A DNA stretch of 64,000 bases, from the NCBI GenBank assembly GCA_037043015.1, contig CM073323.1, positions 30,500,086 to 30,564,085 of the forward strand, given 5' to 3'. The notes below the pieces were generated by a model. It was given only the letters and a program-made list of their open reading frames with translations. It searched no databases and was not told where the DNA came from. The position numbers were made by a program, and so were the translations under genes. Shown piece after piece: positions 1-64,000 of the stretch (its first letter is position 1; the number at the start of each line of letters is the position of its first letter). The stretch comes from Bryum argenteum (taxonomy: Eukaryota; Streptophyta; Bryopsida; Bryales; Bryaceae).

Positions 1-150
1 ACGTACAGGGACCTTGAAAAAGTCAGCGTCCTCGCCTCTCCGTGGAGCCCTAATCCTTAACCCGACTACATGCTGATTTCCAAATGACGACAGACGCTGG
101 TACTACGTATTGGTGTTGAAGGGATTGAAAGAAGTGGAGTGATCAAGTAG

Positions 151-1349
151 CTATGGTGAAGCATCGCCTGGTTTGCAGAGAAGAAGCCAGCAAGAGACCA
201 AGAAGATTGAAGAGAAACAGAGCAGCACTATCACCACTCCGATCGTATACAATCTCGCTGTTAAGGACGGCCTAGTCATATCTCCAACCGCTCTGTCCCT
301 GGCGTTTATACGGAAGTTGAAATGCTGAGGCCCAACATGCAGCTTCACGTCATTGATACTCTGTTTTAACACCTGTGTATACAAGGGAAGAGAAGTACAA
401 AACTCGCTATCAGTATCTAGTAAGCAATTAGAGCACCTCGTTCTTCTTATGTGCCTAATGCCGTAAGGATGCTCCGGTTTACGTCAGACTTCGACTCTAC
501 TGTTTCGAGCGCGACTACATTTCCAGATATTCAGCTAGAGTATACGAACATGCATTGGGTTAGGCGATACTCAGACCTTCTTACCGACAAAAGTCTAATT
601 CTCTCTCACCGTGAGCATGAAGCTCTAAGCAAATTTGCAATCAAACGAAATAATGAGAGATTTCTACAGGGTTGGCACTAGAGGTTTTAAGGGAAAGGGT
701 GCAATTGACGAGGCTGTGGTACCTTACAGGTCTGTCTTGAATGAGCAATGGTGATTTCTAATTTCCACAAGAGAGTGAGCTTCTGTATCACCACAACAGT
801 GGTAACCAACGATGTCCACAATGATAAGAGAAATGCTGTCCACCAGTTATGGCACCGCAACATGGACGATTGTGCCACCGCCGTGAAAAGCACGCCCTGG
901 AACACGATGTAAAACCCAATGACTTGGTAGATCTCGTTGCGGATGCTATTCTGCTTCGCCTCGAAGAAAGGTAGTGCGTTGTTTATGTAGTGCTCAACTT
1001 TCTTCTGTCAGTCTTGAAACGCAATCCTTAGTTTCTCGTACTTGCCGCTGTTGAGCTCATGCAAGTTTGTGGCCTCCATTTCCGCTACGCACAGCCCCTC
1101 GTCATCGTCGCTCTATACCTTGCTCAGATCCACCACGTGCCCATTTCCGATTCCGGCATCATTATTGCTATCGCTGTGCTCGGGGCCCGCGCTAGTGGGC
1201 AAACTGGTGCCGACAGTGAAAGAACTGGTTGTGGCGACGCCAGAGCATGTGCAACCTGCGCAGTGCCGGGTAGTGCCGCAGCTGGGGAGCGGAAGGAGTT
1301 CCTGCTCCTCAGCCGTCGTGAGAGGGACGATTTCCTGCATCTCAGCCAT
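151..1349 (-). pseudogene. Membrane-protein pseudogene, U1 copy (two in-frame stops)
   Basis: Two-exon reading on the minus strand. Exon A runs from an ATG at 1349 down to 723. A 350-bp intron has donor AAG|GTACCA and acceptor TACACAG. Exon B (372-151) ends in TAG. The conceptual product is 282 residues with stops at codon 79 (TAG, 1115-1113) and codon 114 (TGA, 1010-1008). After the second stop the frame reads like a genuine protein: a charged helix (KKVEHYINNALPFFEAK), hydrophobic stretches at about 141-162 and 171-190, and a C-terminal membrane segment at about 250-275 before a short tail. The layout resembles an uncharacterised membrane-protein family I associate with mosses; this is family-level recall with no search behind it. 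The TGA stands where a Trp codon (TGG) would be one base away. The start and the intron are inferred. No function is known to me. Confidence 0.55.
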
Positions 1350-1999
1350 CAAAGAAGTGAGTGACTAACGCGGGGAGATCCTGAAGCTCGATTTCAATCG
1401 CCATTGCTACTTAGGTATCGCTATCCGCAGCTCGTTGAACAGAGTCACAAATAGTCACTGCTCAGAACCCTTGATGATGCGCTTCAGCTTCCAACTCAAT
1501 GTCGTCGTGTCGTAGAGCGAGTCAGGGAAGTTCAACCCTCTCTGATCCTCGCCACCTGCATGGGAGAGCAACACAGCCGCTTGAACAATGTGGCGAGCAA
1601 CACAGCCACACCCACAACGATCCCCACTGCCGGCTTCGCTTGAGATCATTACTGCCACTACCGCCGGTCAACGAAGCTGATACAGTGTTGCCTGGGCTCA
1701 AGCCTGGCGCTCGTGGCGCAAGCCCGCTGATACCTGGCTGGCGACGGACCATCGCTGAATGAGCCCAAAGTTGACGAGGCTGCAATCACAGACCACAGGT
1801 CTCAATATGATCAGCTAGTGGAGTTTGACAGATCCTAACAATCGAAGCAGCTCTGATATGGTTTGGCAATCAATTCGAACAGGAAGTCGCATAAGTAGAG
1901 ACTACCTTGTGTGTGTGTGGCGCTTGTGCTGAAGCTCCAGGAGATGATCCTCTTCCACACTCCATTCTACCGTTACAGCTCACACAACACACCAATTCG
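1350..1999. other. Gene-poor stretch upstream of the membrane pseudogene, U1
   Basis: No recognised gene. On the minus strand, 1645-1532 is a 37-codon frame after a stop. It reads as a possible membrane segment (about AVGIVVGVAVLLATLF, then a Lys/Arg/Cys-rich tail). It could be the last exon of a second, older membrane-protein relic. Alternative frames over the same bases are also open, so the evidence is weak. The equivalent stretch recurs in every unit. Confidence 0.3.
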
Positions 2000-2787
2000 A
2001 TCAAGCAAGGGTGGCCTTGGCTGCGAATCCATGATCTGTTCCTACCACGACATGAACAATGAGAAGAATTCAACACAATTCAAGTATAAACTCACGTTCA
2101 CAGCAATCCAAATTTGAATTTCCATCTTTTCCCGCGCCTAGGCAGCTCCGCCCTCCCGCTCACTGGTGCCGCCGTCGCTGTCAGGGCATAGCATTCAAAC
2201 CGCCGCCCTTCTTCATCGGTATCTTATTTGTTGGTGTAAGAGGAATCTTGTTTCTTACAATGCCACACCAATTCATTCTACTTTAGCAAATAATCTAATC
2301 AATTTGGTAGTCTAGGTATGTCAAAATGGCACTGTCTTGAATTAATGTCATTTCATTCACATCGTCCATGACTGTACTTTTAATGCGTATATTTGATGAA
2401 TGGGTACTAACACTTAAACCTCTTTCAAATCACTTTTCATAATTTCACGATTTGAGACAAGATTGCCGGGGTGCAAAAATCTTCTTGTGCTTTCAATTTT
2501 CAACCACAAATATTTGTCCTGAATTATATATACTTACAAACAAAAATATTGATTCAAATGGTACTTATTAATAGTTACCTATACTCAAAATATTGTACTA
2601 ACACACGTTAAAAGTAATAAAAAGTTTGTATCATATGAATGATACCTATATTATATATAATTTTGTGATTATTACAAACATGACATATTTCCTTTACATT
2701 GATATATTTTATAAATTAGGTTAAGTTGAGCAATTTAGATTGACGAGTTCACACACATAGTATTATCTAGGTGTGCCACCTCGAGGC
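2000..2787 (+). repeat. Forward arm of the U1 inverted repeat
   Basis: This stretch recurs as the reverse complement at 5393-6182, with about 2.6 kb between the arms. It contains no recognised gene. The second half (from about 2290) is AT-rich DNA that leads into the minisatellite in every unit. The arms are similar but not identical. The forward arm has CTCGAGGCGTGAC at its inner end where the inverted arm has the CTCGGCGTGAC form, and it has four rather than five T in the run near 2126. Confidence 0.85.
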
Positions 2788-3692
2788 GTGACAATGAGGG
2801 GGTGGTTCACAATAGGGGGTTGATCACAATAAGAGGTTGTTCGTAATAAGGGGGTTGTTCACAATAGGGGTTGATCACAATAAAGGGGTTGTTCACAATA
2901 AAGGGGGTTGATTACAATAAGGGGTTGTTCACAATAAGGGATTAAGGGGGTTGTTCACAACAAAGGGGGTTGATCACAATAAAGGGGTGGTTCACAATGA
3001 GGGGTTGATCACAATAAGGGGTTGGTCACAACAAGGGGGTTGTTCTCAATAGGGGGTTGATCACAATTAAGGGGTTGTTCACAATAAGGGATTAAGGGGT
3101 TGTTCACAACAAAAGGGATTGATGACAATAAGGGGGTTGATCACAATCGAAGGTTATTTACAATAAGGGATTGTTCACAATAAGAGGTTGATCACAATAA
3201 GGGGTTGATCACGATAAGGGGGTTGTTCTCAATTGGGGGTTGATTACAATAAGGGGTTTCTTAATAGGAAGGTTGATCACAATAAAGGGTGATTACAATA
3301 AGGGGGTTGTTCACAATAAGGGGTTGTTGTTCACAATAAGGGGTTGTTTGAGTAAACTTATTATTTTATTACGTAAGGGGTTGATCACAATAAGGGGTTG
3401 GTCACAATAAGGGTTTGATTCATTCGCTTTAAGGTTGAACAAATACTGTTTCATTTTAGGAAATTGGATCACATCAGTAGGTGGATGATCACAATAAGGG
3501 GGATGATCACAATAAAGAGGTTGTTCACAATAAGAGGGTTGATGACAATAAAGGGTTGTTCACAATAAGGGATTAAGGGGTTCTTCACAATAAGGAATTG
3601 ATCAGGGGTTCCACCAATTCCATTAAGTAGAGTTGTTCTCAATAGGAAGGTTGATCAAAATAAAAAATTGGGGTTGTTCACAATAAGGGTTG
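2788..3692 (+). repeat. 17-bp minisatellite, U1 forward array, partly scrambled
   Basis: Tandem monomers of the form TTGATCACAATAAGGGG or TTGTTCACAATAAGGGG. From about 3340 the order no longer follows U2. Short pieces of the right-hand AT-rich flank are embedded among monomers: GAGTAAACTTATTATTTTA near 3351 and TTTTAGGAAATTGGA near 3455. In U2 these lie outside the array. The patch is either a rearranged breakpoint or a mixed consensus. Confidence 0.85.
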
Positions 3693-6182
3693 ATTTTGTA
3701 TATCTAAGAAACTTTATTAAATGTTTTTGAGTCAAATCTGAAACCTTCAGGGGTTTCTAACCTCAACCTTTTGGATTATCAATGTCGAACTTTATGGGGG
3801 GTTAAGATTTGGTCCAAGGAAATAAAAGCGCAAATGAGGGAAAATAAATAATAAGTGGGTTGTTTGATCAAATAGTTTTGGGTTTGATTACAAGGGGGAA
3901 AGAACGACATTGGTCACAATAGTGAGATTGTATTGATTAAATATTATGCTTTGATATTTGATTTGAAGTTTTGAAAAGGAAGAACGAAGGTGAATGAAGC
4001 AAATAATGCCAACCATTGTTCTCAAATATTTAATATGCTTAGATAATATTATTTTTGCACCCTAAACCCCAAATTAGTTGGTCCAATTTCCTAAAATAGG
4101 TAGTTTTGTTTTATACTTGATTTAAAAGAGAAATAATTTGAAAATCAATATAAAATGGACTTATTTAATTAGAAATTGATATTATTTTATGATAAAATGG
4201 GTTGCACAAGAAACCCATGAGGAAGCTTATTAGTTTCCTAAATAATAAGTTTACTCAAACTAAGAAAAATCTAGTCCTATTTGATTTTAAAGGCTTATTG
4301 AACAACCCTCAACCCTTGATCAACCCCCTTATAACAGTTCACCCCTTGTTCTAATCAACCTCCTGCATAGGGTGACCAACCCCCTTATTGTGATCAACCC
4401 CTTTTTGTAATCAACCCCTATTGAAAACCCCCTTATTGTAATCAACCTTATTGTGACTAACCCCCTTATTGTGAACAACCCTTTATCAAGCCCTGTATCA
4501 ACCCTTACGTAACAACCCCTTTTATTGCAACCTTCCTATTGAGAACAACCCCTTATCGTAATATAACCCCTTATTGAGAACAACCCCTTATCGTGATTAA
4601 CCCCTTGTGATCAACCCCTTATTGTAACAACCTTATTGTGAATAACCCCTTTATTATGATCAATTCCTTATTGTGAAGAACCCCCTTAATCCCTTATTGT
4701 GAACAACCCTTTATTGTCATCAACCCTCTTATTGTGAACAACCTCTTTATTGTGATCATCCCCTTATTGCGATCATCCCCTATTGCGATCAACCCCATCG
4801 CCAACAACCCCTTATACGACTAACCCCTTATTGTGATCAACCCTTATTGTGAACAACCCCCCTTATTGTGAACAACCCCTTTATTGTGAACAACCCCTTA
4901 TTGTAATCCCTTTATTGCGATCAACCTTCCTATTAAGAACCCCTTATTGTAATCAACCCCCCAATTGAGAACAACCCCTTATCGTGATCAACCCCCTTTG
5001 GCTGCGATCAACCTCTTATTGTGAACAATCCCTTATTGTAAATAACCTCGATTGTGATCAACCCCCTTATTGTCATCAATCCCTTTTTTGCAACAACCCC
5101 TTAATCCCTTATTGTGAACAACCCCTTAATTGTGATCAGCCCCCTATTGAGAACAACCCCTTGTTGTGACCAACCCCCTTATTGTGATCAACCTCATTGT
5201 GAACCACCCTTTATTGTGATCAACCCCTTGCTGTGAACAACCCCTAATCCCTTATTGTGAACAACCCCTTATTGTAATCAACCCCTTATTGTGAACAACC
5301 CTTTATTGTGATCAACCCCTATTGAACAACCCCTTATTCCGAACAACCTCTTATTGCGATCAACCCCTATTGTGAACCACCCCCATTGTCACGCCGAGTG
5401 GCACACCTAGATAATACTATGTGTGTGAACTCGATCAATCTAAATTGCCTAACTTAACCCTAATTTATAAATATATCAATGTAAAGGAAATATGTCATGT
5501 TTGTAATAATCACAAAATTATATATAATATAGGTATCATTCATATGATACAAACTTTTTTGTACTTTTAACGTAAGTTAGAAGTACAATATTTTGAGTAT
5601 GGGTAACTATTAATAAGTACCATTTGAATCAATATTTTTGTTTGTAAGTATATATAATTCAGGACAAATATTTGTGGTTGAAAATTGAAAGCACAAGAAG
5701 ATTTTTTGCACCCGGCAATCTTGTCTCAAATCGTGAAATTATGAAAAGTGATTTGAAAGAGGTTTAAGTGTTAGTACCCATTCATCAAATATACGCATTA
5801 AAAAGTACAGTCATGGACGATGTGAATGAAATGACATTAATTCAAGACAGTGCCATTTTGACATACCTAGACTACCAAATTGATTAGATTATTTGCTAAA
5901 GTAGAATGAATTGGTGTGGCATTGTAAGAAACAAGATTCCTCTTACACCAACAAATAAGATACCGATGAAGAAGGGGCGGCGGTTTGAATGCTATGCCCT
6001 GACAGCGACGGCGGCACCAGTGAGCGGAGGGCGGAGCTGCCTAGGCGCGGGAAAAAGATGGAAATTCAAATTTGGATTGCTGTGAACGTGAGTTTATACT
6101 TGAATTGTGTTGAATTCTTCTCATTGTTCATGTCGTGGTAGGAACAGATCATGGATTCGCAGCCAAGGCCACCTTGCTTGAT
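3693..6182 (-). repeat. Inverted segment of a macrosatellite unit inside U1
   Basis: Reverse complement of unit sequence corresponding to U2 from about 14090 to 16865. Reading left to right it holds AT-rich right flank (3693-4293, shorter than in U2), C-rich-strand minisatellite (4294-5392), then left flank and gene-poor DNA (5393-6182). It ends at the N gap. Several alleles match U4/U5 and not the U1 forward arm: CGCCGAGTG near 5392, the five-A runs near 5803 and 6053, and GCGAT forms of minisatellite monomers at 4770, 4786 and 4918. Confidence 0.88.
4294..5392 (-). repeat. 17-bp minisatellite, inverted array in U1
   Basis: The same 17-bp repeat read on the other strand, as CCCCTTATTGTGATCAA and CCCCTTATTGTGAACAA. 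At 1099 bp it is slightly shorter than the intact arrays. Monomer order broadly mirrors U4/U5, including the doubled GATCATCCCC block near 4755-4790. Some monomers keep the U2/U3 form (ATCGTGAT near 4585 and 4981). Confidence 0.92.
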
Positions 6183-6282
6183 NNNNNNNNNNNNNNNNNN
6201 NNNNNNNNNNNNNNNNNNNNNNNNNNNNNNNNNNNNNNNNNNNNNNNNNNNNNNNNNNNNNNNNNNNNNNNNNNNNNNNNNN
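6183..6282. other. Assembly gap of 100 N
   Basis: Exactly 100 unknown bases, a length often used as a placeholder for a gap of unknown size. The left side is inverted unit sequence. The right side is forward-strand PLD exon 6. The gap therefore joins two pieces that are not adjacent in U2-U5, and the orientation across it is unproven. Confidence 0.97.
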
Positions 6283-7956
6283 ATGTGGCCCTAGGGTGTC
6301 TCCTGTGGTGCAGCCTCTGTCAAGAAATTCCTGCATTTTCAGGTAATCAACTAATCCCACTATCTAAACAATAACGCATCAGACTTTCAATAACTTGAAA
6401 AGATTTCGCCTATTCTTCCGCTATGTAAGAGGCTATGGATGGACCCTGATTGATGCCTACTTCTTCATGTAAGATATTTGGCAATTTTCATAGTGTAGAT
6501 ATTGATGCAATTCGTCTGATAATAATGACAGGAATGGGGAATCCTCAATGCACGATATTCTTTTTCTTTCTTATTGCATAATAGGTCAGAAAAGAGTTGC
6601 TCAATTTACGAATTTGACTATTTTGCAGTGAAGGTGTTGATCGATTTTGATTGCTTCTTTTTGATTTGTGACCAGTCGCAAAACGATGAAGATGATGTAC
6701 GCCAGAGTTGCAGGTGCGCTACGAGAATATGGCCCGTGCATGCAAAGCCAACAGATTACTTGAATTTCTACTGCCTAGAGACGAGAGAGATCACAAACCA
6801 ACAGAGTTTGTACCGGCAGCCCCCGGATAACAACCTCATCATGTAAGTAATATGAAAACGCATGCTCATGTTTTTGAGGTTATAAAGATTCATTGTGGTA
6901 CTTTGAAGCAGCCTGGTGATTGAAAGCTTGCCTGGGAGCATGCAGACTTTCAAAAAAGTCAATAGACGGATGATGATATATGTGCACGCGAAAGGAATGA
7001 TCGTAGACGACGAGTTGCAGGAACGTGGGGCTCCGCCAATATCAATCAACGATCCATGGATGGCTCCAGAGACAGAGAAATTGCCATGGGCGGCTATCAA
7101 CCGCAACACACGTGGTATCAGAAACAAGGCCATCCTCGGTCAGGTGGGTTCATATCTGCTAAAGTCTACCCCAGTCGTACATTTCAGGCCTTCCTACCTT
7201 ATGGTGGGTCGAATTGGGGTGGAGAGCCAATCTGAGCTCAAGTGACATGACTTTGAGCTTGAGCTGAAAGTAATAAATAAACAATTCAGTTGTTCGTGCC
7301 GTTGAAGCAGACAAACAAAAACAGATCACGATCAGCCGTTCCAATTTTAAATTCAGCGGATAGTGTTAGTACTTTTAATCAATTGGTTCTTACTAATTAA
7401 TTGGTTCTTACTATAATCAGTGTAACTGCTGACAACCTGTTTTTGATAACATCAGAGCTTCTATCTCTAATGTAAATTCAAACAGACAGACCTCACCAAT
7501 GGGAGGATTGAATACAATGCAACCCACCTTCAGTGTAAACTCACCTTTAGGAGTATAAAAGTCTTTGAAGCTTTACGCCTCGACGAGGAGTTTATGGATC
7601 TACTCACCTGATCTCTACTTCTGTGAAGCTTGGCTCATCAGATTTGAAATGGCGTGCAGGTATATGGCTACCGGATGTCGTTGTGGGCGGAGCAGGTGGG
7701 AGGCTTGGAGCAAGAGTTTGAGGAGCCAGAGAGCGTGGAGTGCGTGCACAGGTTGAACTTCATCGCAGACAGGAACTGGGAGCAGTACGCAGCTCCACAA
7801 ATCACCGACATGAGGAGTCATCTGATCCGCTACCCGCTCAAAGTGGAGGATGATGGCACAGTCACCAATTTGCCGGGCTTCATCACCTTCCCCGACGTCG
7901 GAGGGAAGATCATGGGCTCCAACCAGCCCAACATTCCTGACGACTTAACAACCTGA
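6283..7956 (+). pseudogene. Phospholipase D pseudogene, U1 copy (exons 6-9 only)
   Basis: The 3' part of the PLD relic, resuming after the N gap. Partial exon 6 is 6283-6342 and already contains the shared nonsense codon (TAG, 6292-6294). Exon 7 is about 6676-6842, with an extra A near 6683 and further small indels that break the frame. Exon 8 is about 6946-7143. The second catalytic motif ([12 protein letters not shown]) survives there, but the following GSAN region of the other copies is scrambled by indels from about 7015. Exon 9 (7660-7956) is intact to its TGA and encodes the usual PLD C-terminus (YGYRMSLWAEQ near the start, TFPDVGGKI near the end). Exons 1-5 are absent. This copy is the most degraded, and the decay fades with distance from the gap. 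Confidence 0.9.
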
Positions 7957-10900
7957 TCCACATTAATTGTAACCGTACTTGAACAATGTATCCATACTTA
8001 GTGTTTTGTAGCGAGATGTCCTCGAAGTGAGAGACAGATTTCATTGCAGGTGGTGAAGCCATTCTGAACCAAAGGTGTGGTATAATCCTGTACATAGGAA
8101 GCTCTTTGCTTCCATTAAGTAGATATTTTGTAACTCAACTTGCAGCTAGAAAAAATTCTTCAATGGAGTCCTGGCTACTGAACTCGAAGTAAGACGTTGG
8201 TTAGGTACGTTCCTTCGGATATGCTTCATAGATTAAAGTCTGGACAGTATAGATGAAAGTTGACGATCGGAAGATTTGCGTTGTGGGTTGTGAGGATCCG
8301 GAAGAAGAGTGAGGAATAATCTAGGAAATCTTTGAAGATTCACGAAGCGTGTGGAGTGAAATGTACGGGAAGCAAGATGGGATGTGCGTATGGGGAGATG
8401 GAGGGAGTGATGAAGGGGGTGGGATGTCCGAGGAAAGGACTAAGGATGGATATATATATATATGTTTGAAGCTATGGCGTAGGTTGGTAGTTTACCTACC
8501 GCGCCGGCGATGAGTGAGTGTGAGAGGCTATGGCTGTGTCTATGGCTTGATCTCATGCTCATTTGTATCGTATCGTTTGTGGGTTCCTTTCTCCAGCGGT
8601 TTTGGGTTTCTTTCTCCATCGGGACCCATTTTTGGTGTGCAATTCATCCAATGTACGAATGTCTTCTAAACAGTTTCAAGCTACAATTTGATATTACGAA
8701 ATCCCATGTACAGGTTGTTCAAATTTGGTGCGAACCTGATCAGCAATCAAATTGTGCACTAAAAATGAAACCATTATGCAATGAATCTGCTATAAATTTG
8801 CAATGATTTTGCATCTTCGTCTTTCGGTCCATATCAAAATAAACCAAACGCTTGCTTTACGTATTAAAGTTTCAATGACTTTGTGTTAGAGGTGACCCAA
8901 ATTCTGAGGTGCCCCAGTTGACTTTGACATGTACCGTATTGACGAATACTAACATTGAAATTATTTATTCAAGCTTACAGTTCATGCGATCAGTTTATTT
9001 GATTTCACATTATATTTCCCTGGAAGTTTTCTGACTTCTTTTCATACCAATTGCGGACGTCCAGTATTCTACCTCTCAAGAAAGAGTTCTAGACTCATAA
9101 TTCTGTCGGAACATTCAAGTCAACTCTTAATTTCAATATGGAAATCATGCATGATTACTCAGTCACAAGCTTCTCGAAAGAATGGTTGCCATTTCAACAC
9201 GATCAATTTCCCGCATCAAAACTTTATTAGAAAACGGAAGAATCCACGAGCTCGCACAGTAGCTTACGTGTAAGCTAATGACGGCAATGTGAGGGTTGTC
9301 CTCGGCCACCTGCAACTTGACATTCCCCTTTCCACCAACAATGAAAGCTCCGCTGACGACATGACTAGACGCACCAAAACAGCACCACATGCGTCGTCGT
9401 CGTCGTCGTTACATGGTGGACGGAAAGAAACGGAAACGAATCCAGTACGTACGTTTGGTGTTATTGATAAAGTAGCAACTCCGCAGTTGTAACGCTTCAA
9501 ATGGCTCCTTCCGCGTAGAAGTTCAACGATCCAATTTACCAACCGGTCCAGGGGTGCCCGCTGGTATACTTAGTCATGCGTATCATGTTTCCCAAATAAT
9601 AATCGCGCGTGGTGTAACTAAGGTCAAATAGGGCCAGGAACAATCAATGCGTCTCCACCACTTCTGTAACGGTACTGGGTTTCCATTGCATGCACAACCT
9701 CGGTCATGGGCATGTAGCCCATGCATTCACCTCTGAAATCTGAGCCATGTGATCAACTTAGAGCAGTCTACAAGAATTAAGCTGACGATTGTAATGCTGT
9801 GATCAACAACATCTTGGTCCATATCTGACTTCATGAGATCATCGACGTTCTTCCGTCCTTGGCCGAGCATCCATCTGGAACAGATTAGTACCGAAACCGC
9901 TGGTCACCATTTCTCCCACAGAGAAAATCCTGGAACCTGTAGGATTGAGCAGAGTGCACACGGATTAATCTGATGACCAAAGTTTGCACTTCATAGGCTT
10001 CAATGCTCTAAATCAAGCTCTACATCGTCATAGTTACATCAACTGCCCATCCACATGACCGTGATGAAATGGAATTGACGACTTCGCACGTCGTAGTTAG
10101 TAGTGGCATGGTTCAAGAGCTCAACCGCAGCACGCGGACCGTCTTGCTCGCAAACATGAAAGAGGGGAGTGACTACAGGCGAGTTGGGGATTCAAAAGAA
10201 AATTTCTCGGTGCATTCGCGGCTCATATCCATCCAGTGCATGCACTCGCCGTAAGCTTATACAGATGGGCATCGAAATCGTTTTCAAAAAACTGTCTAAA
10301 CTCAAACCAGAAGCTAGAAAATGATCCAGTAAGCTACAACTCATTCGCATGCTCCTCTATGGTTTGCACACGGTGCTCGAATTCTCTCCCAGAAAACCAG
10401 GGATGAGACTGCAGACAAGTAACTTTTATCTCAATTTTTGGCCTGCATGCAGCCCATGCAACCCAAATTACGATCGCTAGCGGACTCGTGAAACCCACCC
10501 CACGTTTGGAATCCACTTATCCGAATTCGAGTTCCGACCAGCAACCTACTAGCTAACTAAATGGCTAACTATGATTGACTGCTCATCAAGAGACTGAGGT
10601 AGACCGATCATCAACTTACATGTCTCCTTGGGATGAACGCGCGCCCTCCTTGGCCCACGCATTAATTGCAACAATCACTTGGTACTCCAAGCCCATATGT
10701 GCCTGGGAGTTTCATTGATCACTTCGCACACGCACTACAAACACCTTAGAAGCCAGCATGAGGGGTCTTACTTACCTGCAACACAGCAATGCTGGAATCT
10801 CAAGGCTATGGAATCGATTGCGCATGAATCAAGCATTCTTGTGTAATCGAATGACAGCCTGTATGCTCGACCGCGGATACTAGAAAGAGGACCTCCCAGC

Positions 10901-12090
10901 TCTGCCCCAGTCCTACCAATCTCTGCTCCTTTTGGAAGCGCATCACGTATCGGTAAACGACTTTCTGTCATTTTCTATTGAGATATTGCCCGACTCTTGT
11001 TCTAGCATATTAATCCTTGCACACTACCCAGGACGCAAGGTCCGTTTCTTGCATGAATCCTAGTACGTTTTTGGAAATATTGTTTCAAGAGCGACGTGAT
11101 CGGTCAAGGGATGCGGTCTAAGCATGTGAGCATGCAACCGCTTGCAAGAAACCCCAGTGCTTTGCATGATCATTGTAACCACACCTGTAGAGACGACCCC
11201 ATGCACAAGAATCAAGCTCACAATTATGGTTACTCGAAACTCGGCTTCTACGTTGCACACAAACTCAGTCTGCATGAGGTTCAACTTATTACTATACATC
11301 CTACGGTGGTGAATGCAAGGTGACAATACGCGTTCGTATTCGGAAATGCTAGAAGAATGCGAGGAAGGTAGGCACGAGCTTTCCGTAGAGCGTTACTCAC
11401 ACCTCTATACCAATGAATTCATTCCAAGAACGTCGGGTTCATCTAAACCTGTGTGCAGACTTTTCAATCCAGATCTACTGAATTCAACTCTCTTGAAACT
11501 ACACCAGTTCCCATGCTAAACCACCGATCTAGAGAAAATTGAGGTTGAACACCATTTATGTAGTGTCATGTAACAATTACGATCATGGCAGATCGATGGA
11601 TGCGAGCTTACCAGTGGGATCCACCGATGGGATGGAACTTGGGGATGGGTCATTGCAAAAGAAGTGGCCACTCAAGCAAGCAGGCCAGGGATGGTGCCAG
11701 TGACCGAGAATTTCCACGTGCAGCCCTCATCTCCTCATCTTCTCTGTCCCATGAATCGTCACCCGCCGCCCAAGTCATGACTTTCAGCTCCACATGATCA
11801 CACACAGATGCCGCCCACGTCATGACTTTCAGCTCCACATGATCACACACAGATGCCGCCCACGTCGATTGCGGCCTCAACAAAATCATGACTAGCGAAG
11901 TTACAGCTAATTCTACTTCTATGGGTTCCAAGTTGAGCATAACTCATGGTTCAGGAACGGTTTTATCTTGCTTCAGTTTCAGATTGATACAACTGATAGT
12001 GCTCAGAGCAAGCAAAGGAATCGGTACCGACTCAACGTCAACGGATACAGATGAGTATCTCTGCATGCATGCATGCAAGGCAAGGATTTC
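7957..12090. other. Gene-poor 3' region of U1
   Basis: About 4.1 kb between the PLD stop and the next unit. Small open frames exist on both strands, but none is recognisable, and several are interrupted by indels in other units. It holds a short TA run near 8449, a (CGT)n run near 9391 (about six copies), a 45-bp duplication (11774-11863) and a TGCATGCATGCATGCA run near 12062. One minus-strand stretch near 9260-9390 ends in a plausible donor (CAC|GTAAGC) and could be an old exon, but I cannot name it. Confidence 0.5.
11774..11863. repeat. 45-bp tandem duplication, U1
   Basis: Two perfect copies of a 45-bp element beginning GTCATGACTTTCAGC. Because 45 is a multiple of three, both strands keep their frames across it. 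A minus-strand frame shows a repeated 15-residue block (WAASVCDHVELKVMT), but there is no other sign of a gene. Confidence 0.9.
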
Positions 12091-12240
12091 ACGTACAGGG
12101 ACCTTGAAAAAGTCAGCGTCCTCGCCTCTCCGTGGAGCCCTAATCCTTAACCCGACTACATGCTGATTTCCAAATGACGACAGACGCTGGTACTACGTAT
12201 TGGTGTTGAAGGGATTGAAAGAAGTGGAGTGATCAAGTAG

Positions 12241-24666: not shown

Positions 24667-24816
24667 ACGTACAGGGACCTTGAAAAAGTCAGCGTCCTCG
24701 CCTCTCCGTGGAGCCCTAATCCTTAACCCGACTACATGCTGATTTCCAAATGACGACAGACGCTGGTACTACGTATTGGTGTTGAAGGGATTGAAAGAAG
24801 TGGAGTGATCAAGTAG

Positions 24817-49795: not shown

Positions 49796-49945
49796 ACGTA
49801 CAGGGACCTTGAAAAAGTCAGCGTCCTCGCCTCTCCGTGGAGCCCTAATCCTTAACCCGACTACATGCTGATTTCCAAATGACGACAGACGCTGGTACTA
49901 CGTATTGGTGTTGAAGGGATTGAAAGAAGTGGAGTGATCAAGTAG

Positions 49946-52585: not shown

Positions 52586-53757
52586 GTGACAATGGGGGTG
52601 GTTCACAATAGGGGTTGATCACAATAAGAGGTTGTTGAGAATAAGGGGTTGTTCACAATAGGGGTTGATCACAATAAAGGGGTTGTTCACAATAAAGGGG
52701 TTGATTACAATAAGGGGTTGTTCACAATAAGGGATTAAGGGGTTGTTCACAACAAAGGGGTTGATCACAATAAAGGGGTGGTTCACAATGAGGGGGTTGA
52801 TCACAATAAGGGGTTGGTCACAACAAGGGGTTGTTCTCAATAGAAGTGATCACAATTAAGGGGTTGTTCACAATAAGGGATTAAGGGGTTGTTTACAACA
52901 AAGGGATTGATGACAATAAGGGGTTGATCACAATCGGAAGGTTATTTACAATAAGGGATTGTTCACAATAAGAGGTTGATCACAATAAGGGGTTGATCGC
53001 GATAAGGGGTTGTTCTCAATTGGGGGTTGATTACAATAAGGGGTTCTTCTTAATAGGAAGGTTGATCGCAATAAGGGGTGATTACAATAAGGGGTTGTTC
53101 ACAATAAGGGGTTGTTCACAATAAGGGGTTGTTCACAATAAGGGGTTGATCGCAATAAGGGGTTGGTCACAATAAGGGGTTGTTCGCGATGGGGTTGATC
53201 GCAATAGGGGGATGATCGCAATAAGGGGATGATCACAATAAAGAGGTTGTTCACAATAAGAGGGTTGATGACAATAAAGGGTTGTTCACAATAAGGGATT
53301 AAGGGGTTCTTCACAATAAGGGAATTGATCATAATAAGGGGTTATTCACAATAAGGGGTTGTTCACAATAAGGGGTTGATCACAATAAGGGGTTAATCGC
53401 GATAAGGGGTTGTTCTCAATAGGGGTTATATTACAATAAGGGGTTGTTCTCAATAGGAAGGTTGATCACAATAAAGGGGTTGTTCACAATAAGGGGTTGA
53501 TCGCAATGAGGGCTTGATCGCAATAAGGGGTTGTTCACAATAAGGGGTTGGTCACAATAAGGGGTTGATTACAATAAGGGGTTGTTCTCAATAGGGGTTG
53601 ATTACAAAAAGGGGTTGATCACAATAAGGGGTTGGTCACAATAAGGGGGTAGTTCTCTATAGGAGGGTTGATTAGAACAAGGGGTGAAGGGGTTGTTCTC
53701 AATAGGGGGTTGATCACAATAAGGGGTTGATCACAATAAGGGGTTGTTCACAATAAG
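52586..53757 (+). repeat. 17-bp minisatellite array, U5
   Basis: 1172 bp, the shortest complete array. It keeps the five ATCGC monomers of U4 (G at 52999, 53068, 53201, 53218, 53399) and adds three more of the same type (53152, 53503, 53520). Most G runs are four rather than five. Confidence 0.96.
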
Positions 53758-54979
53758 CCTTTAAAATCAAATAGGACTAGGTTTTCTTAGTTTGAGTAAA
53801 CTTATTATTTTAGGAAACTAATAAGCTTCCTCATAGGTTTCTTGTCGCTCACTCCATTTTATCATATACTATGTTATTTATGCCAATAATATCAATTTCT
53901 AATTCGTGATAATAGAAAGTACATTTTATATTGATTTTCAAATTATTTCTCTTTTAAATCAAGTATAAAACAAATACTACCTATTTTAGGAAATTGGACC
54001 ATGTAGATCTAATTTGGGGTTTAGGGTTTTTATGAAAGCAAAAATAATATTATCTAAGCATATTAAATATTTAATCAATACAATCCCACTATGACATTAT
54101 GAGTTGGCATTGGATTCTACTTCATTCACCTTATCATTATTTCCCCTTAACTTTCAAAACTTCAAACTTTGTCCCACAAATATCAAAGCATAAGTATTTA
54201 ATCAATACAATCTCACTATGACATTATGAGTTGGCATTGGATTTTACTTCATTCACCTTATCATTCTTTCCCCCGTAACTTTCAAAATTTCAAACTTTCC
54301 CCCTCAAACATCAAAACATATATATTTAATCAATACAATCCCACTATGACATTATTTATTTTCCCTCATTTGCGCTTTTATTTCCTTGGACCAAATCTTA
54401 ACCATTCACCTACATTATCTTTAGCATAAAGTTCGACATGATAATCCAAAAAGGTTGAGGTTAGAATGTGGAGTTCCCAACTGAAGGTTTCAGATTTCAA
54501 ATGAGAAACTCAAAAACATTTAATAAAGTTTCTTAGATATATACAAAAGTATCACGCAAGGAACACAAGTTAACCACGTTGAACACCCAATTTTGTAATT
54601 TTCCTACATAGCAGTAATATAAAATAAAGGGGACTACTGAGTATACTCATGGAAGTTGGTGGAACATGTACAGTACAACAATTTCACACGCATCAAAAGG
54701 GACAATTTGAAAATTTGAACACCCAAATTTGAGATTTCAAACGCATAGAAAGGGACAATTTGAAAATTTGAACACCCAAACTTGTGATTTTGTAACTTTC
54801 CTACATAATGTTCAGTAGTATAAAATAAAGGGGACTACTGAGTATACTCCTGGAAGTTGGTGGACTATGTACAGTACCAAAATTTCACACGCATAAAAAA
54901 GGGACAATTTGAAAATTCAAATAAATAAATGAATTACTGATGATGGATGTACAGCGGTTTGGAATTGTGCTTCTTTCAG
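53758..54979. repeat. AT-rich flank with two tandem duplications, U5
   Basis: Same arrangement, with two extra A near 54896 and one base lost near 53845. No gene. Confidence 0.85.
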
Positions 54980-57900
54980 GCGGGTGTAATGAACACTCAT
55001 GACGAAGAGACGAAGAAGTTTTCAAGGGTACATCAGTTCGATGTATTCTAGCTCCACGCTATGGTGCATCGAAGTCAACTTAGTTCAGGCAAAAGGTAGG
55101 TTGGGTTCATTGCGAGACTACAGTATTAAACAATTCAGGAGGTTGATGTTTGAGTTTTAGAAGTTGCCTGCTGAACACAGACTCCATAATGTTGATTGCT
55201 CAACAGTTGTGGATCCACTGATGGAGGCTAACAAGCATGTTGTGATTAATAGAATATGTGACCCGTGATGATTCCATGTCAGGTCGTGGGGTCGCTCTAC
55301 ACGCATCACCAAAAGACCGTGATCGTTGACAGCGGACCTATCGGTCAAAGGAGATTGTCCGCCTTCGTCGGTGGCTTGGACTTGACAGGAGGCCGATGGG
55401 ACACGCCTGCACATCACATTTTTGCTTCACTTCAGAATGAGCACAAGGGTGACTTCCGTAACAAATCCTGGGAGGTGAGTGACAAGTAAAGAGTCAAGAT
55501 GCGATCATGCTTTAAGATAGAGAACCGTCATAACAAATTTCCTTTTTATCGTGTTGGCAGTATGAACCAGAGAGTGGAGGACCCAGGGAACCGTGGCACG
55601 ACTGGCACTGCAAGATTGAAGGTCACGCTGCGTACGATGTCCTCACGAACTTCGAGCAGCGGTGGAGAAAAGCCACTTCACGGCATGACGACGAGCTGAT
55701 TGATATCGATCGCCATGACGGTATTTGGAGTCCTTCGAACCGTGCTCCGGATGCTGGCGATCCTGCCCTTTTCGTAAGCAATGAGCGTGACCCGGAAACT
55801 TGGCATGTGCAGGTTTTACCCTCCCTCCATTACATGCCACTTTGAATTACATGAATAGTGTCCTTATCTCGATATCTTCAGAAACTTTTCGTTCGTAATT
55901 GACAATTGACTGAATGGATATCGTGAGTGAGTAAACGAATGGGAACAAATTCGTCTTTTAGTGTGGGTAAAAAGCTGACAACGGTGTTAATTGTGCAGGT
56001 ATTCAGGTCGATTGATGCAGGATCTGTGAAAGGTTTTCCCACCACCGTCGACCAGGTTTAAAAAGAGGTACGAAATGCTCATGCTCATGAAGCACCTGAT
56101 TGAAATTCAAGAGATTAGCAGCTATATGTGACCCTGTTGTTGTGATGCAGAAACTGGTGTGGGGTAAAAGCGTTGCCATAGACATAAGCATTCAGATGGC
56201 GTACATTATTGCAATACGATCTGCTCAACATTTCATATACATCGAGAATCAATACTTTCTGGGATCGTCGTACAACTGGCCAGACTACAAAACAGCTGGT
56301 ACTCTTTCGACCATAATCATCCTGACATGGTGATAATTTCGACATCAATAATGCCGTCGAGTAACCATTGATGTTCCACAGGTGCCAATCATCTCATTCC
56401 GATGGAACTGGCGCTGAAGATCTGCAGCAAAATCAGAGAGGGCAAGAGGTTTGCCGTGTACGTGGTCGTTCCCATGTGGCCCTAGGGTGTTCCCGGCAGT
56501 GGCCCCTGTCAAGAAATTCTGTATTTTCAGGTAATCAACTAAATCCCACCATCTAAACAACAATGCCATCAGACTTTCTCAATAACCTTCTGAAAAGATT
56601 AAGCCATTCTTCCGCTATGTAAGAGGCTATGGATGGACCCTGATTGATGCTCTACTTCTTCATGTAAGATATTATGGCAATTTTCATAGTGTAGATATTG
56701 ATGCAATTGGGTTCGACAATAACGACAGGAATGGGGACCCTCACGCACGATATTCTTTCTTTCGCTGTATAATAGGTTGTGAAAAGAGTTGCTTCAATTC
56801 TACGAATTTGACTATTTTCGCAGTGAAGGTGTTGATCGGGATTTTGATTGCTTCTTTTTGATTTGTGACCAGTCGCAAACGATGAAGATGATGTACGCCA
56901 GAGTTGCAGGTGCGCTACGAGAATATGGCCCGTCGCATGCAAAGCCAACAGATTACTTGAATTTCTACTGCCTAGAGACGAGAGAGACTGCCAAACCGGG
57001 CGAGTTTGTACCGGTGCAGCCCCCGGATAACAACTCTCATCATGTAAGTAATATGAAAAAACGCATGCTCATGTTTTTGGAGGTTATAAAGATTCATTGT
57101 GGTACTTTGAAGCAGCCTGGTGATTGAAAGCTTGCCTGGGAGCATGCAGGGACTTTCGCAAGTCAATAGACGGATGATGATATATGTGCACGCGAAAGGA
57201 ATGATCGTAGACGACGAGTTGGTGATCGTGGGCTCCGCCAACATCAATCAACGATCCATGGATGGCTCAGAGATACAGAAATTGCCATGGGCGGCTATCA
57301 ACCGCAACACACGTGGTATCAGAAACAAGGCCATCCTCGCGGTCAGGTGGGTTCATATCTGCTAAAGTCTACCCCAGTCGTACATTTCAGGCCTTCCTAC
57401 CTTATGGTGGGTTTAGAATTGGGGTGGAGAGCCAATCTGAGCCCAAGTGACATGACTTCGAGCTTGGAGCTTGAAAGTAATAAATAAACAATTTGAATGC
57501 CAGTAACTGAATTCAAGTATACAGTTGTTCGGGTGCCGTTGAAGCAGACAAACAAAAACAGATCACGATCAGCCGTTCCAATTTTAAATTCAGCGGATAG
57601 TGTTAGTACTTTTAATCAATTGGTTCTTACTAATTAATTGGTTCTTACTATAATCAGTGTAACTGCTGACAACCTGTTTTTGATAACATCAGAGCTTCTA
57701 TCTCTAATGTAAATTCAAACAGACAGACCTCACCAATGGGAGGATTGAATACAATGCAACCCACCTTCAGTGTAAACTCACCTTTAGGAGTATAAAAGTC
57801 TTTGAAGCTTTACGCCTCGACGAGGAGTTTATGGATCTACTCACCTGATCTCTACTTCTGTGAAGCTTGGCTCATCAGATTTGAAATGGCGTGCAGGTAT

Positions 57901-58193
57901 ATGGCTACCGGATGTCGTTGTGGGCGGAGCAGGTGGGAGGCTTGGAGCAAGAGTTTGAGGAGCCAGAGAGCGTGGAGTGCGTGCACAGGTTGAACTTCAT
58001 CGCAGACAGGAACTGGGAGCAGTACGCAGCTCCACAAATCACCGACATGAGGAGTCATCTGATCCGCTACCCGCTCAAAGTGGAGGATGATGGCACAGTC
58101 ACCAATTTGCCGGGCTTCATCACCTTCCCCGACGTCGGAGGGAAGATCATGGGCTCCAACCAGCCCAACATTCCTGACGACTTAACAACCTGA
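54980..58193 (+). pseudogene. Phospholipase D pseudogene, U5 copy (several extra lesions)
   Basis: Exons 54980-55095, 55283-55474, 55561-55812, 55999-56055, 56151-56298, 56382-56530, 56873-57043, 57150-57346 and 57897-58193. Exon 1 has lost one T (near 55019, frameshift) and has TAG where the others have TGG (55080-55082). Exon 8 has lost one C near 57267 (GGCTCAGAG), which shifts the frame after the second catalytic motif. The shared exon 6 TAG is at 56483-56485. Exons 2-7 and 9 look unchanged. Confidence 0.93.
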
Positions 58194-61100
58194 TCCACAT
58201 TAATTGTAACCGTACTTGAACAATGTATCCATACTTAGTGTTTTGTAGCGAGATGTCCTCGAAGTGAGAGACAGATTTCATTGCAGGTGGTGAAGCCATT
58301 CTGAACCAAAGGTGTGGTATAATCCTGTACATAGGAAGCTCTTTGCTTCCATTAAGTAGATATTTTGTAACTCAACTTGCAGCTAGAAAAAAATTCTTCA
58401 ATGGAGTCCTGGCTACTGAACTCGAAGTAAGACGTTGGTTAGGTACGTTCCTTCGGGATATGCTTCATAGATTAAAGTCTGGACAGTATAGATGAAAGTT
58501 GACGATCGGAAGATTTGCGTTGTGGGTTGTGAGGATCCGGAAGAAGAGTGAGGAATAATCTAGGAAATCTTTGAAGATTCACGAAGCGTGTGGAGTGAAA
58601 TGTACAGGAAGCAAGATGGGATGTGCGTGCGGGGAGATGGAGGGAGTGATGAAGGGGGTGGGATGTCCGAGGAAAGGACTAAGGATGGATATATATATAT
58701 ATGTTTGAAGCTATGGCGTAGGTTGGTAGTTTACCTACGCGGCCGGCGTATGAGTGAGTGTGAGAGGCTATGGCTGTGTCTATGGCTTGATCTCATGCTC
58801 ATTTGTATCGTATCGTTTGTGGGTTCCTTTCCTCCAGCGGTTTTGGGTTTCTTTCCTCCATCGGGGACCCATTTTTGGTGTGCAATTCATCCAATGTACG
58901 AATGTCTTCTAAACAGTTTCAAGCTACAATTTGATATTACGAAATCCCATGTACAGGTTGTTCAAATTTGGTGCGAACCTGATCAACAATCAAATTGTGC
59001 ACTAAAAATGAAACCATTATGCAATGAATCTGCTATAAATTTGCAATGATTTTGCATCTTCGTCTTTCGGGTCCATATCAAAATAAACCAAACGCTTGCT
59101 TTACGTATTAAAGTTTCAATGACTTTGTGTTAGAGGTGACCCAAATTCTGAGGTGCCCCAGTTGACTTTGACATGTACCGTATTGTGAATACTAACATTG
59201 AAATTATTTATTCAAGCTTACAGTTCATGCGATCAGTTTATTTGATTTCACATTATATTTCCCCTGGAAGTTTTCTGACTTCTTTTCATACCAATTGCGG
59301 ACGTCAGTATTCTACCTCTCAAGAAAGAGTTCTAGACTCATAATTCTGTCGGAACATTCAAGTCAACTCTTAATTTCAATATGGAAATCATGCATGATTA
59401 CTCAGTCACAAGCTTCTCGAAAGAATGGTTGCCATTTCAACACGATCAATTTCCCGCATCAAAACTTTGTTAGAAAACGGAAGAATCCACGAGCCTGCAC
59501 AGTAGCTTACGTGTAAGCTAATGACGGCAATGTGAGGGTTGTCCTCGGCCACCTGCAACTTGACATTCCCCTTTCCACCAACAATGAAAGCTCCGCTGAC
59601 GACATGACTAGACGCACCAAAACAGCACCACATGCGTCGTCGTCGTCGTCGTTACATGGTGGACGGAAAGAAACGGAAACGAATCCAGTACGTACGTTTG
59701 GTGTTATTGATAAAGTAGCAACTCCGCAGTTGTAACGCTTCAAATGGCTCCTTCCGCGTAGAAGTTCAACGATCCAATTTACCAACCGGTCAGGGGTGCC
59801 CGCTGGTATACTTAGTCATGCGTATCATGTTTCCCAAATAATAATCGCGCGTGGTGTAACTAAGGTCAAATAGGGCCAGGAACAATCAATGCGTCTCCAC
59901 CACTTCTGTAACGGTACTGGGTTTCCATTGCATGCACAACCTCGGTCATGGGCATGTAGCCCATGCAATTCACCTCTGAAATCTGAGCCATGTGATCAAC
60001 TTAGAGCAGTCTACAAGAATTAAGCTGACGATTGTAATGCTGTGATCAACAACATCTTGGTCCATATCTGACTTCATGAGATCATCGACGTTCTTCCGTC
60101 CTTGGCCGAGCATCCATCTGGAACAGATTAGTACCGAAACCGCTGGTCACCATTTCTCCCACAGAGAAAAATCCTGGAACCTGTAGGATTGAGCAGAGTG
60201 CACACGGATTAATCTGATGACCAAAGTTTGCACTTCATAGGCTTCAATGCTCTAAATCAAGCTCTACATCGTCATAGTTACATCAACTGCCCATCCACAT
60301 GACCGTGATGAAATGGAATTGACGACTTGATGCGTCGTAGTTAGTAGTGGCATGGTTCAAGAGCTCAACCGCAGCACGCGGACCGTCTTGCTCGCAAACA
60401 TGAAAGAGGGGAGTGACTACAGGCGAGTTGGGGATTCAAAGAAAATTTCTCGGTGCATTCGCGGCTCATATCCATCCAGTGCATGCACTCGCCGTAAGCT
60501 TATACAGATGGGCATCGAAATCGTTTTCAAAAAACTGTCTAAACTCAAACCAGAAGCTAGAAAATGATCCAGTAAGCTACAACTCATTCGCATGCTCCTC
60601 TATGGTTTGCACACGGTGCTCGAATTCTCTCCCAGAAAACCAGGGGATGAGACTGCAGACAAGTAACTTTTATCTCAATTTTTGGCCTGCATGCAGCCCA
60701 TGCAACCCAAATTACGATCGCTAGCGGACTCGTGAAACCCACCCCACGTTTGGAATCCACTTATCCGAATTCGAGTTCCGACCAGCAACCTACTAGCTAA
60801 CTAAATGGCTAACTATGATTGACTGCTCATCAAGAGACTGAGGTAGACCGATCATCAACTTACATGTCTCCTTGGGATGAACGCGCCCTCCTTGGCCCAC
60901 GCATTAATTGCAACAATCACTTGGTACTCCAAGCCCATATGTGCCTGGGAGTTTCATTGATCACTTCGCACACACTACTACAAACACCTTAGAAGCCAGC
61001 ATGAGGGTCTTACTTACCTGCAACACAGCAATGCTGGAATCTCAAGGCTATGGAATCGATTGCGCATGAATCAAGCATTCTTGTGTAATCGAATGACAGC

Positions 61101-62328
61101 CTGTATGCTCGACCGCGGATACTAGAAGAGGACCTCCCAGCTCTGCCCCAGTCCTACCAATCTCTCTGCTCCTTTTGGAAGCGCATCACGTATCAGTAAA
61201 CGACTTTCTGTCATTTTCTATTGGAGATATTGCCCGACTCTTGTTCTAGCATATTAATCCTTGCACACTACCCAGGACGCAAGGTCCGTTTCTTGCATGA
61301 ATCCTAGTACGTTTTGGAAATATTGTTTCAAGAGCGACGTGATCAGTCAAGGGATGCGGTCTAAGCATGTGAGCATGCAACCGCTTGCAAGAAACCCCAG
61401 TGCTTTGCATGATCATTGTAACCACACCTGTAGAGACGACCCCATGCACAAGAATCAAGCTCACAATTATGGTTACTCGAAACTCGGCTTCTACGTTGCA
61501 CAAACTCAGTCTGCATGAGGTTCAACTTATTACTATACATCCTACGGTGGTGAATGCAAGGTGACAATACGCGTTCGTATTCGGAAATGCTAGAAGAATG
61601 CGAGGAAGGTAGGCTGAGCTTTCCGTAGAGCGTTACTCACACCTCTATACCAATGAATTCATTCCAAGAACGTCGGGTTCATCTAAACCTGTGTGCAGAC
61701 TTTTCAATCCAGATCTACTGAATTCAACTCTCTTGAAACTACACCAGTTCCCATGCTAAACCACCGATCTAGAAAATTGAGGTTGAACACCATTTTATGT
61801 AGTGTCATGTAACAATTACGATCATGGCAGATCGATGGATGCGAGCTTACCAGTGGGATCCACCGATGGGATGGAACTTGGGGATGGGTCATTGCAAAAG
61901 AAGTGGCCACTCAAGCAAGCAGGCCAGGGATGGTGCCAGTGACCGAGAATTTCCACGTGCAGCCCTCATCTCCTCATCTTCTCTGTCCCATGAATCGTCA
62001 CCCGCCGCCCAAGTCATGACTTTCAGCTCCACATGATCACACACAGATGCCGCCCACGTCATGACTTTCAGCTCCACATGATCACACACAGATGCCGCCC
62101 ACGTCGATTGCGGCCTCAACAAAATCATGACTAGCGAAGTTACAGCTAATTCTACTTCTATGGGTTCCAAGTTGAGCATAACTCATGGTTCAGGAACGGT
62201 TTTATCTTGCTTCAGTTTCAGATTGATACAACTGATAGTGCTCAGAGCAAGCAAAGGAATCGGTACCGACTCAACGTCAACGGATACAGATGAGTATCTC
62301 TGCATGCATGCATGCAAGGCAAAATTTC
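58194..62328. other. Gene-poor 3' region of U5
   Basis: No recognised gene. A plus-strand frame of 153 codons at 58588-59049 is the longest uninterrupted frame in the window. It exists only because U5-specific indels near 58634 and 58738 fuse two frames that are separate in the other units. Single-base losses increase toward the 3' end (near 59304, 59791, 60885, 61009, 61128, 61313 and 61615). Confidence 0.5.
62013..62102. repeat. 45-bp tandem duplication, U5
   Basis: Same two 45-bp copies as in U1. They are unchanged even though the surrounding U5 sequence has many small indels. Confidence 0.9.
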
Positions 62329-62475
62329 ACGTACAGGGACCTTGAAAAGTCAGCGTCCTCGCCTCTCCCGTGGAGCCTAATCCTTAACCCGACTACATGC
62401 TGATTTCCAAATGACGACAGACGCTGGTACTACGTATTGGTGTTGAAAGTTGAAAGAAGTGGAGTGATCAAGTAG

Positions 62476-63359
62476 CTATGGTGAAGCATCGCCTGGTTTG
62501 CAGAGAAGAAGCCAGCAAGAGACCAAGAAGATTGAAGAGAAACAGAGCAGCACTATCACCACTCCGATCGTATACAATCTCGCTGTTAAGGACGGCCTAG
62601 TCATATCTCAACCGCTCTGTCCCTTTACCAATCAAACAGAAATAATGAGATTTCTACAGGGTTGTGCTAGAGGTTTTAGGAAAGGTGCAATTGGCTTGAG
62701 GCTGTGGTACTGCAGGTCTGTCTTGAATGAGCAATGGTGATTTCTAATTTTCAATACAAGAGAGTGAGCTTCTGTATCACCACAACAGTGGTAAATTCAA
62801 CGATGTCCACAATGATAAGAGAAATGCTGTCCACCAGTTATGGCACCTGCAAACATGGACGTTATTGTGCCACCGCCGTGAAAAGCACGCCCTGGAACAC
62901 GATGTAAACCCACATGACTTGGTAGATCTCGTTGCGGATGCTATTCTGCTTCGCCTCGAGAAGAAAGGTAGTGCGTTGTTTATGTAGTGCTCAACTTTCT
63001 TCTGTCAGTCTTGAAACGCAATCCTTAAGTTTCTCGTACTTGCCGCTGTTGAGCTTCCATGCAAGTTTGTGGCCTTCCATTTCCGCTACGCACAGCCCCT
63101 CGTCATCGTCGCTCTATACACTTGCTCAGATCCATTACGTGCCCATTTCTTCTGATCTCCGGCATCATTATTGCTATCGCTGCCAGCTCCGGGGCCCGCG
63201 CTGAGTGGCAAACTGGTGCCGACAGTGAAAGAACTGGTTGTGGCGACGCCGACGCCATGCAACCTCGCACGCAGTGCCGAGGTAGTGCCGCAGCTGGGAG
63301 CGGAAGGAGTTCCTGCTCCTCAGCCGTCGTGAGAGGACGATTTCCTGCATCTCAGCCAT
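62476..63359 (-). pseudogene. Membrane-protein pseudogene, U6 copy (internally deleted)
   Basis: Exon B survives only from 62476 to 62624. A deletion of about 335 bp then joins it to sequence that lies in the intron of the other copies, removing the acceptor side of exon B and most of the intron. The donor is also lost: the other copies read GGTACCTTACAGG on the plus strand, and this one reads GGTACTGCAGG near 62707. Exon A extends up to an ATG at 63359 but holds many small indels, including the frameshift shared with U5. This copy cannot encode the protein. Confidence 0.5.
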
Positions 63360-64000
63360 CAAAGAAGTGAGTGACTAACGCGGGGAGATCCTCGAAGCTC
63401 GATTTCAATCGCCATTGCGCTACTTAGGGTATCGCTATCCGCAGCTCGTTGAACAGAGAGTCACAAATAGTCACTGCTCAGGAACCCCTTGATGATGCGC
63501 TTCAGCTTCCTTTTAACTCCAATGTCGTCGTGTCGTAGAGCGAGTCAGGGAAGTTCAACCCTCTCTGATCCTCGCCACCTCGCATGGGGAGAGCAAACAC
63601 AGCCGCTTGAACAATGTGGCGAGCAACACACCGCCACACCCACAACGATCCCCACTGCCGGCTTCGCTTGAGATCATTACTGCCACTACCGCCGGTCAAC
63701 GAAGCTGATACAGTGTTGCCTGGGCTCAAGCCTGGCGCTCGTGGCGCAAGCCCGCTTTGATACCTGGCTGGCGACGGACCATCGCTTCGAATGAGCCCAA
63801 AGTTGACGAGGCTGCAATCACAGACCACAGGTCTCAATATGATCAGCTAGTGGAGTTTGACAGATCCTAACAATCGAAGCTTAGCTCTGATATGGTTTGG
63901 CAATCAAAGATTCGAACAGGAAGTCGCATAAGTAGAGACTACCTTGTGTGTGTGTAGGCGCTTGTGCCTGAAGCTCCAGGCAGATGATCCTCGCTATGTC
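63360..64000. other. Gene-poor stretch of U6, cut by the window end
   Basis: Corresponds to about 1350-1950 of U1 with many small insertions, for example near 63414, 63511, 63583, 63757 and 63881. No gene recognised. Confidence 0.45.

Follow-up and report, generated by a model that had tools for sequence, protein, structure and literature searches.

Large tandem repeats have been defined by tandemly arranged units of 100 bp or more, and a unit of about 12.2 kb was described for the human REXO1L1 repeat, with 108-266 copies in 165 individuals (both in the available part of PMC4063668). The units of D4Z4 are 3.3 kb in size and an insulator role is named in the title of the respective report (PMC2639723, available in part). 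Furthermore, one tandem repeat of Physcomitrella patens is transcribed into a lncRNA according to the accessible text of PMC6302065.

We analyzed a window of 64,000 nucleotides of Bryum argenteum (C3:30500086-30564085, here positions 1..64000), whose last base is also that of contig C3. Self-comparison and an exact seed search showed that it consists of head-to-tail units of approximately 12.5 kb, which places it among the macrosatellites or large tandem repeats as defined above. The array resembles REXO1L1 in unit length, in its tandem copies and in carrying gene sequence within the unit. However, REXO1L1 is a primate repeat with a named multicopy gene, whereas the gene remnants of the C3 unit are broken and the assembled copies amount to roughly a tenth or less (PMC4063668, as far as its available part goes). 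Kilobase-sized units in tandem at a chromosomal location are likewise found in the D4Z4 and DXZ4 macrosatellites (same part of PMC4063668). In contrast to D4Z4, for which a role is named (PMC2639723, same part), the C3 array gave no indication of one. Tandem repeats of plants such as PpNATR76 of Physcomitrella patens are a further parallel; PpNATR76 is located in the rDNA spacer according to the accessible text (PMC6302065), whereas the C3 window and the related pieces examined had no Rfam match and hence no rRNA. Among the papers listed on plant macrosatellites and on bryophyte satellites, we found no description of the C3 array. In size and build it stays within the known kinds and is a large but ordinary tandem repeat. 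The original prediction had regarded a unit of this length, with a minisatellite and two multi-exon pseudogenes, as unusual for a plant-type nuclear locus; units of similar size are known, such as that of human REXO1L1 (about 12.2 kb; PMC4063668, available part).

Six unit starts had been proposed. An exact 40-base seed of the unit start was found at positions 1, 12091, 24667, 37238 and 49796, and the sixth start at 62329 is right as well, although one base is missing from its first 40. The complete units, all on the forward strand, are U2 (12091..24666; 12,576 bp), U3 (24667..37237; 12,571 bp), here used as the reference unit, U4 (37238..49795; 12,558 bp) and U5 (49796..62328; 12,533 bp). Their near identity over 12.5 kb, also claimed before, was confirmed: pairwise comparison gave 9-40 substitutions along with 27-50 gap events. 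The substitutions numbered 9 for U2-U3, 27 for U2-U4, 40 for U2-U5, 18 for U3-U4, 30 for U3-U5 and 22 for U4-U5.

The repeat is real, but it does not fill the window as one unbroken array, since a gap of 100 N, a noisy inverted stretch and an unpolished tail interrupt or end it. The gap (6183..6282) is a scaffold gap inside U1 and separates two assembled pieces, here named piece B and piece C. The left part of U1 (1..3689, forward; unit positions 1-3639) closes the forward array of piece B and is clean until about position 2700, then noisy towards 3689. It is followed by the inverted stretch at the end of piece B (3694..6182, reverse strand), which runs from unit position about 4783 down to 2002. 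Piece C starts with the right part of U1 (6283..12090, forward) from unit position about 6704-6708, makes up most of the window and ends with the start of U6 (62329..64000, forward) on the last base of the contig.

The inverted stretch corresponds to a part of the unit in reverse complement; small deletions are frequent in it near 3694 but rare near 6182. Outside the minisatellite, positions 3694-4900 showed 27 substitutions against U3 compared with 195 indel bases. Since the sequence decays into the fold at 3690 on both sides, an assembly artefact is favoured, and the stretch is a probable fold-back at the end of piece B. In the first 600 bases after the gap, 31 substitutions (5.0%) and 35 indel bases were counted against U3; they may reflect either noise or genuine divergence of this copy. 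Before the tail (62629-64000), about 340 unit bases are skipped; the tail itself is insertion-rich, with 59 inserted and 12 missing bases versus 19 substitutions in 62629-63992, and is read as an unpolished contig end. The indel bases per substitution were 7.2 in the noisy inverted piece, 3.7 in the tail and 1.1 at the start of piece C.

Units were found at further places of the assembly. A second cluster, inverted with respect to the window, is located at C3:26.70-26.79 Mb and includes piece D (C3:26753568-26778567; exactly 25,000 bp) and piece A (C3:26778668 to the array edge near 26789828). Contig C19 (47,500 bp) carries further units in both orientations. Its inverted stretches differed from U3 by 1.3-1.5% substitutions, and 1.8-2.4 indel bases were counted per substitution; these stretches may represent a poorly polished fold-back. 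All pieces together hold about 10-13 unit lengths by arithmetic on this one assembly.

Piece B (C3:30478768-30506267) is exactly 27,500 bp in size with gaps on both sides, and piece C (C3:30506368-30564085) is 57,718 bp; neither has a unique flank. For four array pieces both ends are known; the lengths of three of them (B, D and C19) are multiples of 2,500 bp, whereas that of piece C is not. Contig C13 (25,000 bp), which holds a related 8.8-kb repeat, is a multiple of 2,500 bp as well. Cuts at such round numbers come from Hi-C scaffolders such as 3D-DNA and may have the same origin here. The cut ends of A and B adjoin at the next unit base with none lost or gained, and so do those of C19 and D. 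Across the two joins 11 of 300 and 4 of 304 columns differed from U3, and those displayed were single-base gaps, mostly in G runs. Because of this base-exact abutment A and B, as well as C19 and D, were very probably contiguous before scaffolding, and from the junction of A and B it follows that the first 6.2 kb of the window belong beside C3:26.779 Mb, 3.7 Mb away. Piece C most likely belongs to the same locus, as judged by its near identity to A, B and D alone.

The array gives way to other DNA near 26.7898 Mb (piece A) and near 26.7607 Mb (piece D). Read together, A and B start in non-array DNA near 26.79 Mb and continue for about three head-to-tail unit lengths. For the first 4 kb beyond A (L026), the only matches at other places came from a single dispersed repeat about 260 bp long (40 candidates scored of 1,990). 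For the 6.3 kb beyond D, such matches came from a dispersed repeat about 325 bp long and from C7, where the match was 80% (40 candidates scored of 3,205). The location of the array in a chromosome with flanking DNA is thus given by pieces A and D, piece C having no flank. Beyond the 7 kb of other DNA next to D, further relic copies were present at 26.704-26.751 Mb, which makes the left edge of the array ragged.

We therefore consider the array, with a probability of about 85%, to be a chromosomal macrosatellite of units of approximately 12.5 kb, which lies on C3 near 26.70-26.79 Mb and was wrongly placed at the end of the contig. Its terminal position was very probably caused by a scaffolding error. 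A separate subtelomeric array at the C3 end, existing besides the 26.7-Mb cluster and represented by piece C, would agree with the scaffold, which puts pieces B and C there, and with the related arrays near the ends of C7 and C11; piece C, moreover, is nowhere anchored by sequence. Against it stand the abutment of piece B to the piece at 26.779 Mb, the round length of B between two gaps and the near identity of C to A, B and D. In addition, TTTAGGG or CCCTAAA motifs in runs of at least two were absent from the window. We regard such a second array as very unlikely.

Divergence was calculated as substitutions against U3 with the minisatellite left out. It amounted to 0.04% for U2, 0.04% for U4, 0.08% for U5, 0.11% for B, 0.07% for inner A and 0.15% for window positions 1-2700. 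Less uniform among the inner pieces were 6884-12090 (0.38%), the forward stretch of C19 (0.29%) and the unit part of D (0.48%). The edge copy at 26787110-26789828 differed by 3.93%, and five edge stretches in 26.727-26.746 Mb by 4.79%, 2.47%, 2.11%, 4.76% and 6.06%. Edge copies had 0.08-1.10 indel bases per substitution versus 1.5-3.8 in the clean units, and the unit differences are largely small indels of the kind left by polishing. Altogether 150 substitution-variable sites were found among eight copies; 112 were private to piece A and 11 were common to at least two copies.

Unequal crossing-over and conversion predict a homogenised centre and decayed edges. This pattern was found here, with 0.04-0.48% in the inner copies versus 2.1-6.1% at the edges and with the start of piece C (5.0%, perhaps noise) as the exception.

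The variable sites also bear on the number of units. Piece C could be an assembly-graph loop which was unrolled too often, the real units being fewer than displayed. Both of its ends are unlike the units and lead to no unique flank, and U2 and U3 are without private substitutions outside the minisatellite, all of which would fit a loop. However, two substitutions are common to U4 and U5, and four adjacent sites (10563-10566, perhaps one event) separate U3-U5 from B and U2, so that several units are distinct. A collapse of the array is also as likely as over-counting, and we consider the loop unlikely. An extrachromosomal or rolling-circle DNA concatemer, not fixed in the chromosome, would likewise yield head-to-tail order and uniform units. 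Yet pieces A and D join other DNA and the edge copies are decayed, which makes a circle highly improbable as the present state of the array; it may conceivably have been the past source of the first duplication.

The original prediction had left open the choice between a real macrosatellite, a circular concatemer and an assembly problem. The first is supported by the abutting pieces A and B, which run from non-array DNA into head-to-tail units. The second is not needed. The concern about the assembly was justified, though in a different way: a graph loop of identical copies does not fit variants shared by subsets of units, but pieces were indeed cut, moved and juxtaposed across a gap. Neither this gap nor the inverted stretch or the raw tail had been mentioned in the original prediction.

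Each of the units U2-U5 contains a minisatellite, as had been stated before, with a period of 17 bp and about 69 copies (27473..28652 in U3, forward strand). The unit was further said to carry two dead multi-exon genes, and the multi-exon build was confirmed for one of them. It is a phospholipase D (PLD) pseudogene (29872..33087 in U3, forward strand) with nine exon-like stretches, which match a paralogue at C3:9.554 Mb exon by exon (unit positions 5206-8421). Of ten proteins searched, eight were open stretches from this region, and three of these matched Pfam PLD models: the PLDc active-site motif was found in two of them, so that it is present twice in the decayed gene, and PLD_C in one (7e-29). 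Another open stretch matched the 6kz8 chain, Phospholipase D alpha 1 (E 9.7e-11). The exons of a functional phospholipase D gene are expected to be uninterrupted; here two of the nine stretches contained stop codons inside, the first of which may lie at an exon end. Before unit position 5206, where the N-terminal C2 domain would be expected, no match was found to the paralogue stretch, which may or may not include the C2 exons. Further PLD paralogues were present on C4, C6 and C11.

The second gene is a single truncated open stretch of 106 aa resembling a membrane protein (25357..25674 in U3, reverse strand), and its longer edge copies form a single frame as well. A genome search with it, in which all 46 candidates were scored, gave 39 matches. 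Identity was 100% in eight copies with an open frame of 106 aa and in a further two, open for 109 and 113 aa. Longer open copies were found at 26733820 (98%, 225 aa), 26705095 (97%, 217 aa) and 26707478 (90%, 232 aa), together with a relative of 66% at 26710614 (234 aa open). In the inverted copies on C19, 72-123 aa were open. The 225-aa frame matched DUF2207_C below the curated cut-off (21.7 vs 33 bits), and no solved structure was matched by it.

A noncoding core of 2.9 kb (33406..36291 in U3, forward strand; unit positions 8740-11625) connects the C3 unit to an older repeat family, and it is all that the two units have in common. Matches to the core at about 69-88% were found in arrays on C6, C7, C8, C9 and C11 and as single copies on C5 and C10. 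As the searches scored at most 40 candidates, the copy counts are lower bounds. The units of these arrays range from 8.8 to 9.8 kb (8.8 kb on C6, C7 and C11, 9.1-9.7 kb on C8, 9.8 kb on C9). Those of C6, C7 and C11, which are 94-99% alike, may represent parts of a single locus, and the position of the C7 and C11 arrays near contig ends may also be due to misplacement. Another fragment of the family is located at C8:13.137 Mb. The best conserved part of the core (33406..33655 in U3, forward strand) reached 82-90% against other arrays, with the first 206 bases matching contig C13 at 90%, compared with 69-83% for other core stretches.

Several origins or roles of the core were considered. A TATATA run was present in 10 of 11 aligned copies and missing in the C5 copy, which leaves a promoter reading of the 200-odd conserved bases weak. 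Open stretches of the C6 unit matched the relatives on C5, C8, C9 and C10 (best 14 matches per relative) on both strands and with stops and gaps, so that a coding origin was rejected and the family is regarded as noncoding. No Rfam match was obtained in the window, in 14 loci, in L011 (E up to 1) or in L033, and no tRNA was found in 11 loci; the core is thus no rDNA or spacer derivative, and the unit lacks the rRNA gene which an rDNA or rDNA-spacer repeat would carry. One array per chromosome would be a sign of a centromere; this reading is not supported, as the C7 and C11 arrays lie near contig ends and no long match on C1, C2 or C4 was found among the 40 candidates scored of 55, 65 and 180; in one of the core searches C1 and C2 showed only pieces of about 150-200 bases. 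The core occurs in at least four macrosatellite types and in the relics on C5 and C10. That it promotes tandem amplification, or is retained by it, is an improbable though consistent reading. Candidate roles could be a promoter of a long noncoding RNA, a hotspot of replication or recombination or a centromere-linked repeat.

Based on these comparisons, the unit may have been born as a composite of a degraded phospholipase D locus, a relic of a membrane-protein gene, the minisatellite and part of an older family of 9-kb macrosatellites. This composite would then have been duplicated in tandem, with unequal crossing-over and gene conversion maintaining its uniformity. The truncation of the gene frame may already have been present in the amplified copy, or the truncated frame may have spread by conversion. 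Most likely, the array persists as a passive by-product of recombination, with no product or function indicated.

The locus carries a caution for the reading of assemblies: scaffolding can move a part of an interstitial array to the tip of a chromosome, and base-exact cut ends expose such a move. It also provides a worked case in which the truncation of a gene is uniform in the homogenised units while the open frame is kept in older edge copies. If it were true that the core drives amplification, it would offer an entry point to the question of why certain sequences turn into macrosatellites.

Noncoding tandem units of 8.8 kb were located in the B. argenteum assembly on contigs C6 (2.05-2.15 Mb), C7 (55-97 kb), C11 (6.95-6.985 Mb) and C13. 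The units of C6, C7 and C11 were 94-99% alike, and C13 resembled them at 92-97% across the first 1.3 kb of this contig. Both the C7 and the C11 array were placed close to contig ends, which may be a scaffolding effect as for the macrosatellite array on C3.

Older relatives within this 9-kb family, which shares a noncoding core with the C3 unit, were present as arrays at C8:4.25-4.30 Mb and C9:3.77-3.80 Mb and as single copies at C5:13.21 Mb and C10:9.08 Mb. On C1, the phospholipase D part of the C3 unit had a lone match, a 740-bp fragment (C1:8332984-8333715) with 92% likeness.

Each flank of the C3 array contained one dispersed short repeat, of ~260 bp (L026:3195-3450) and ~325 bp (L022, about 6990-7320), respectively. 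Copies of these repeats, 95-98% alike, occurred across C1-C11 in a genome search per flank with 40 candidates scored each.

Additionally, a segment resembling positions 26132-27000 of the window (80-84%) was found on C9 in four copies spaced 16.5-18 kb (3.555-3.607 Mb) and in two copies 14.5 kb apart (6.625-6.640 Mb). These two regions are probably additional tandem arrays with large units.
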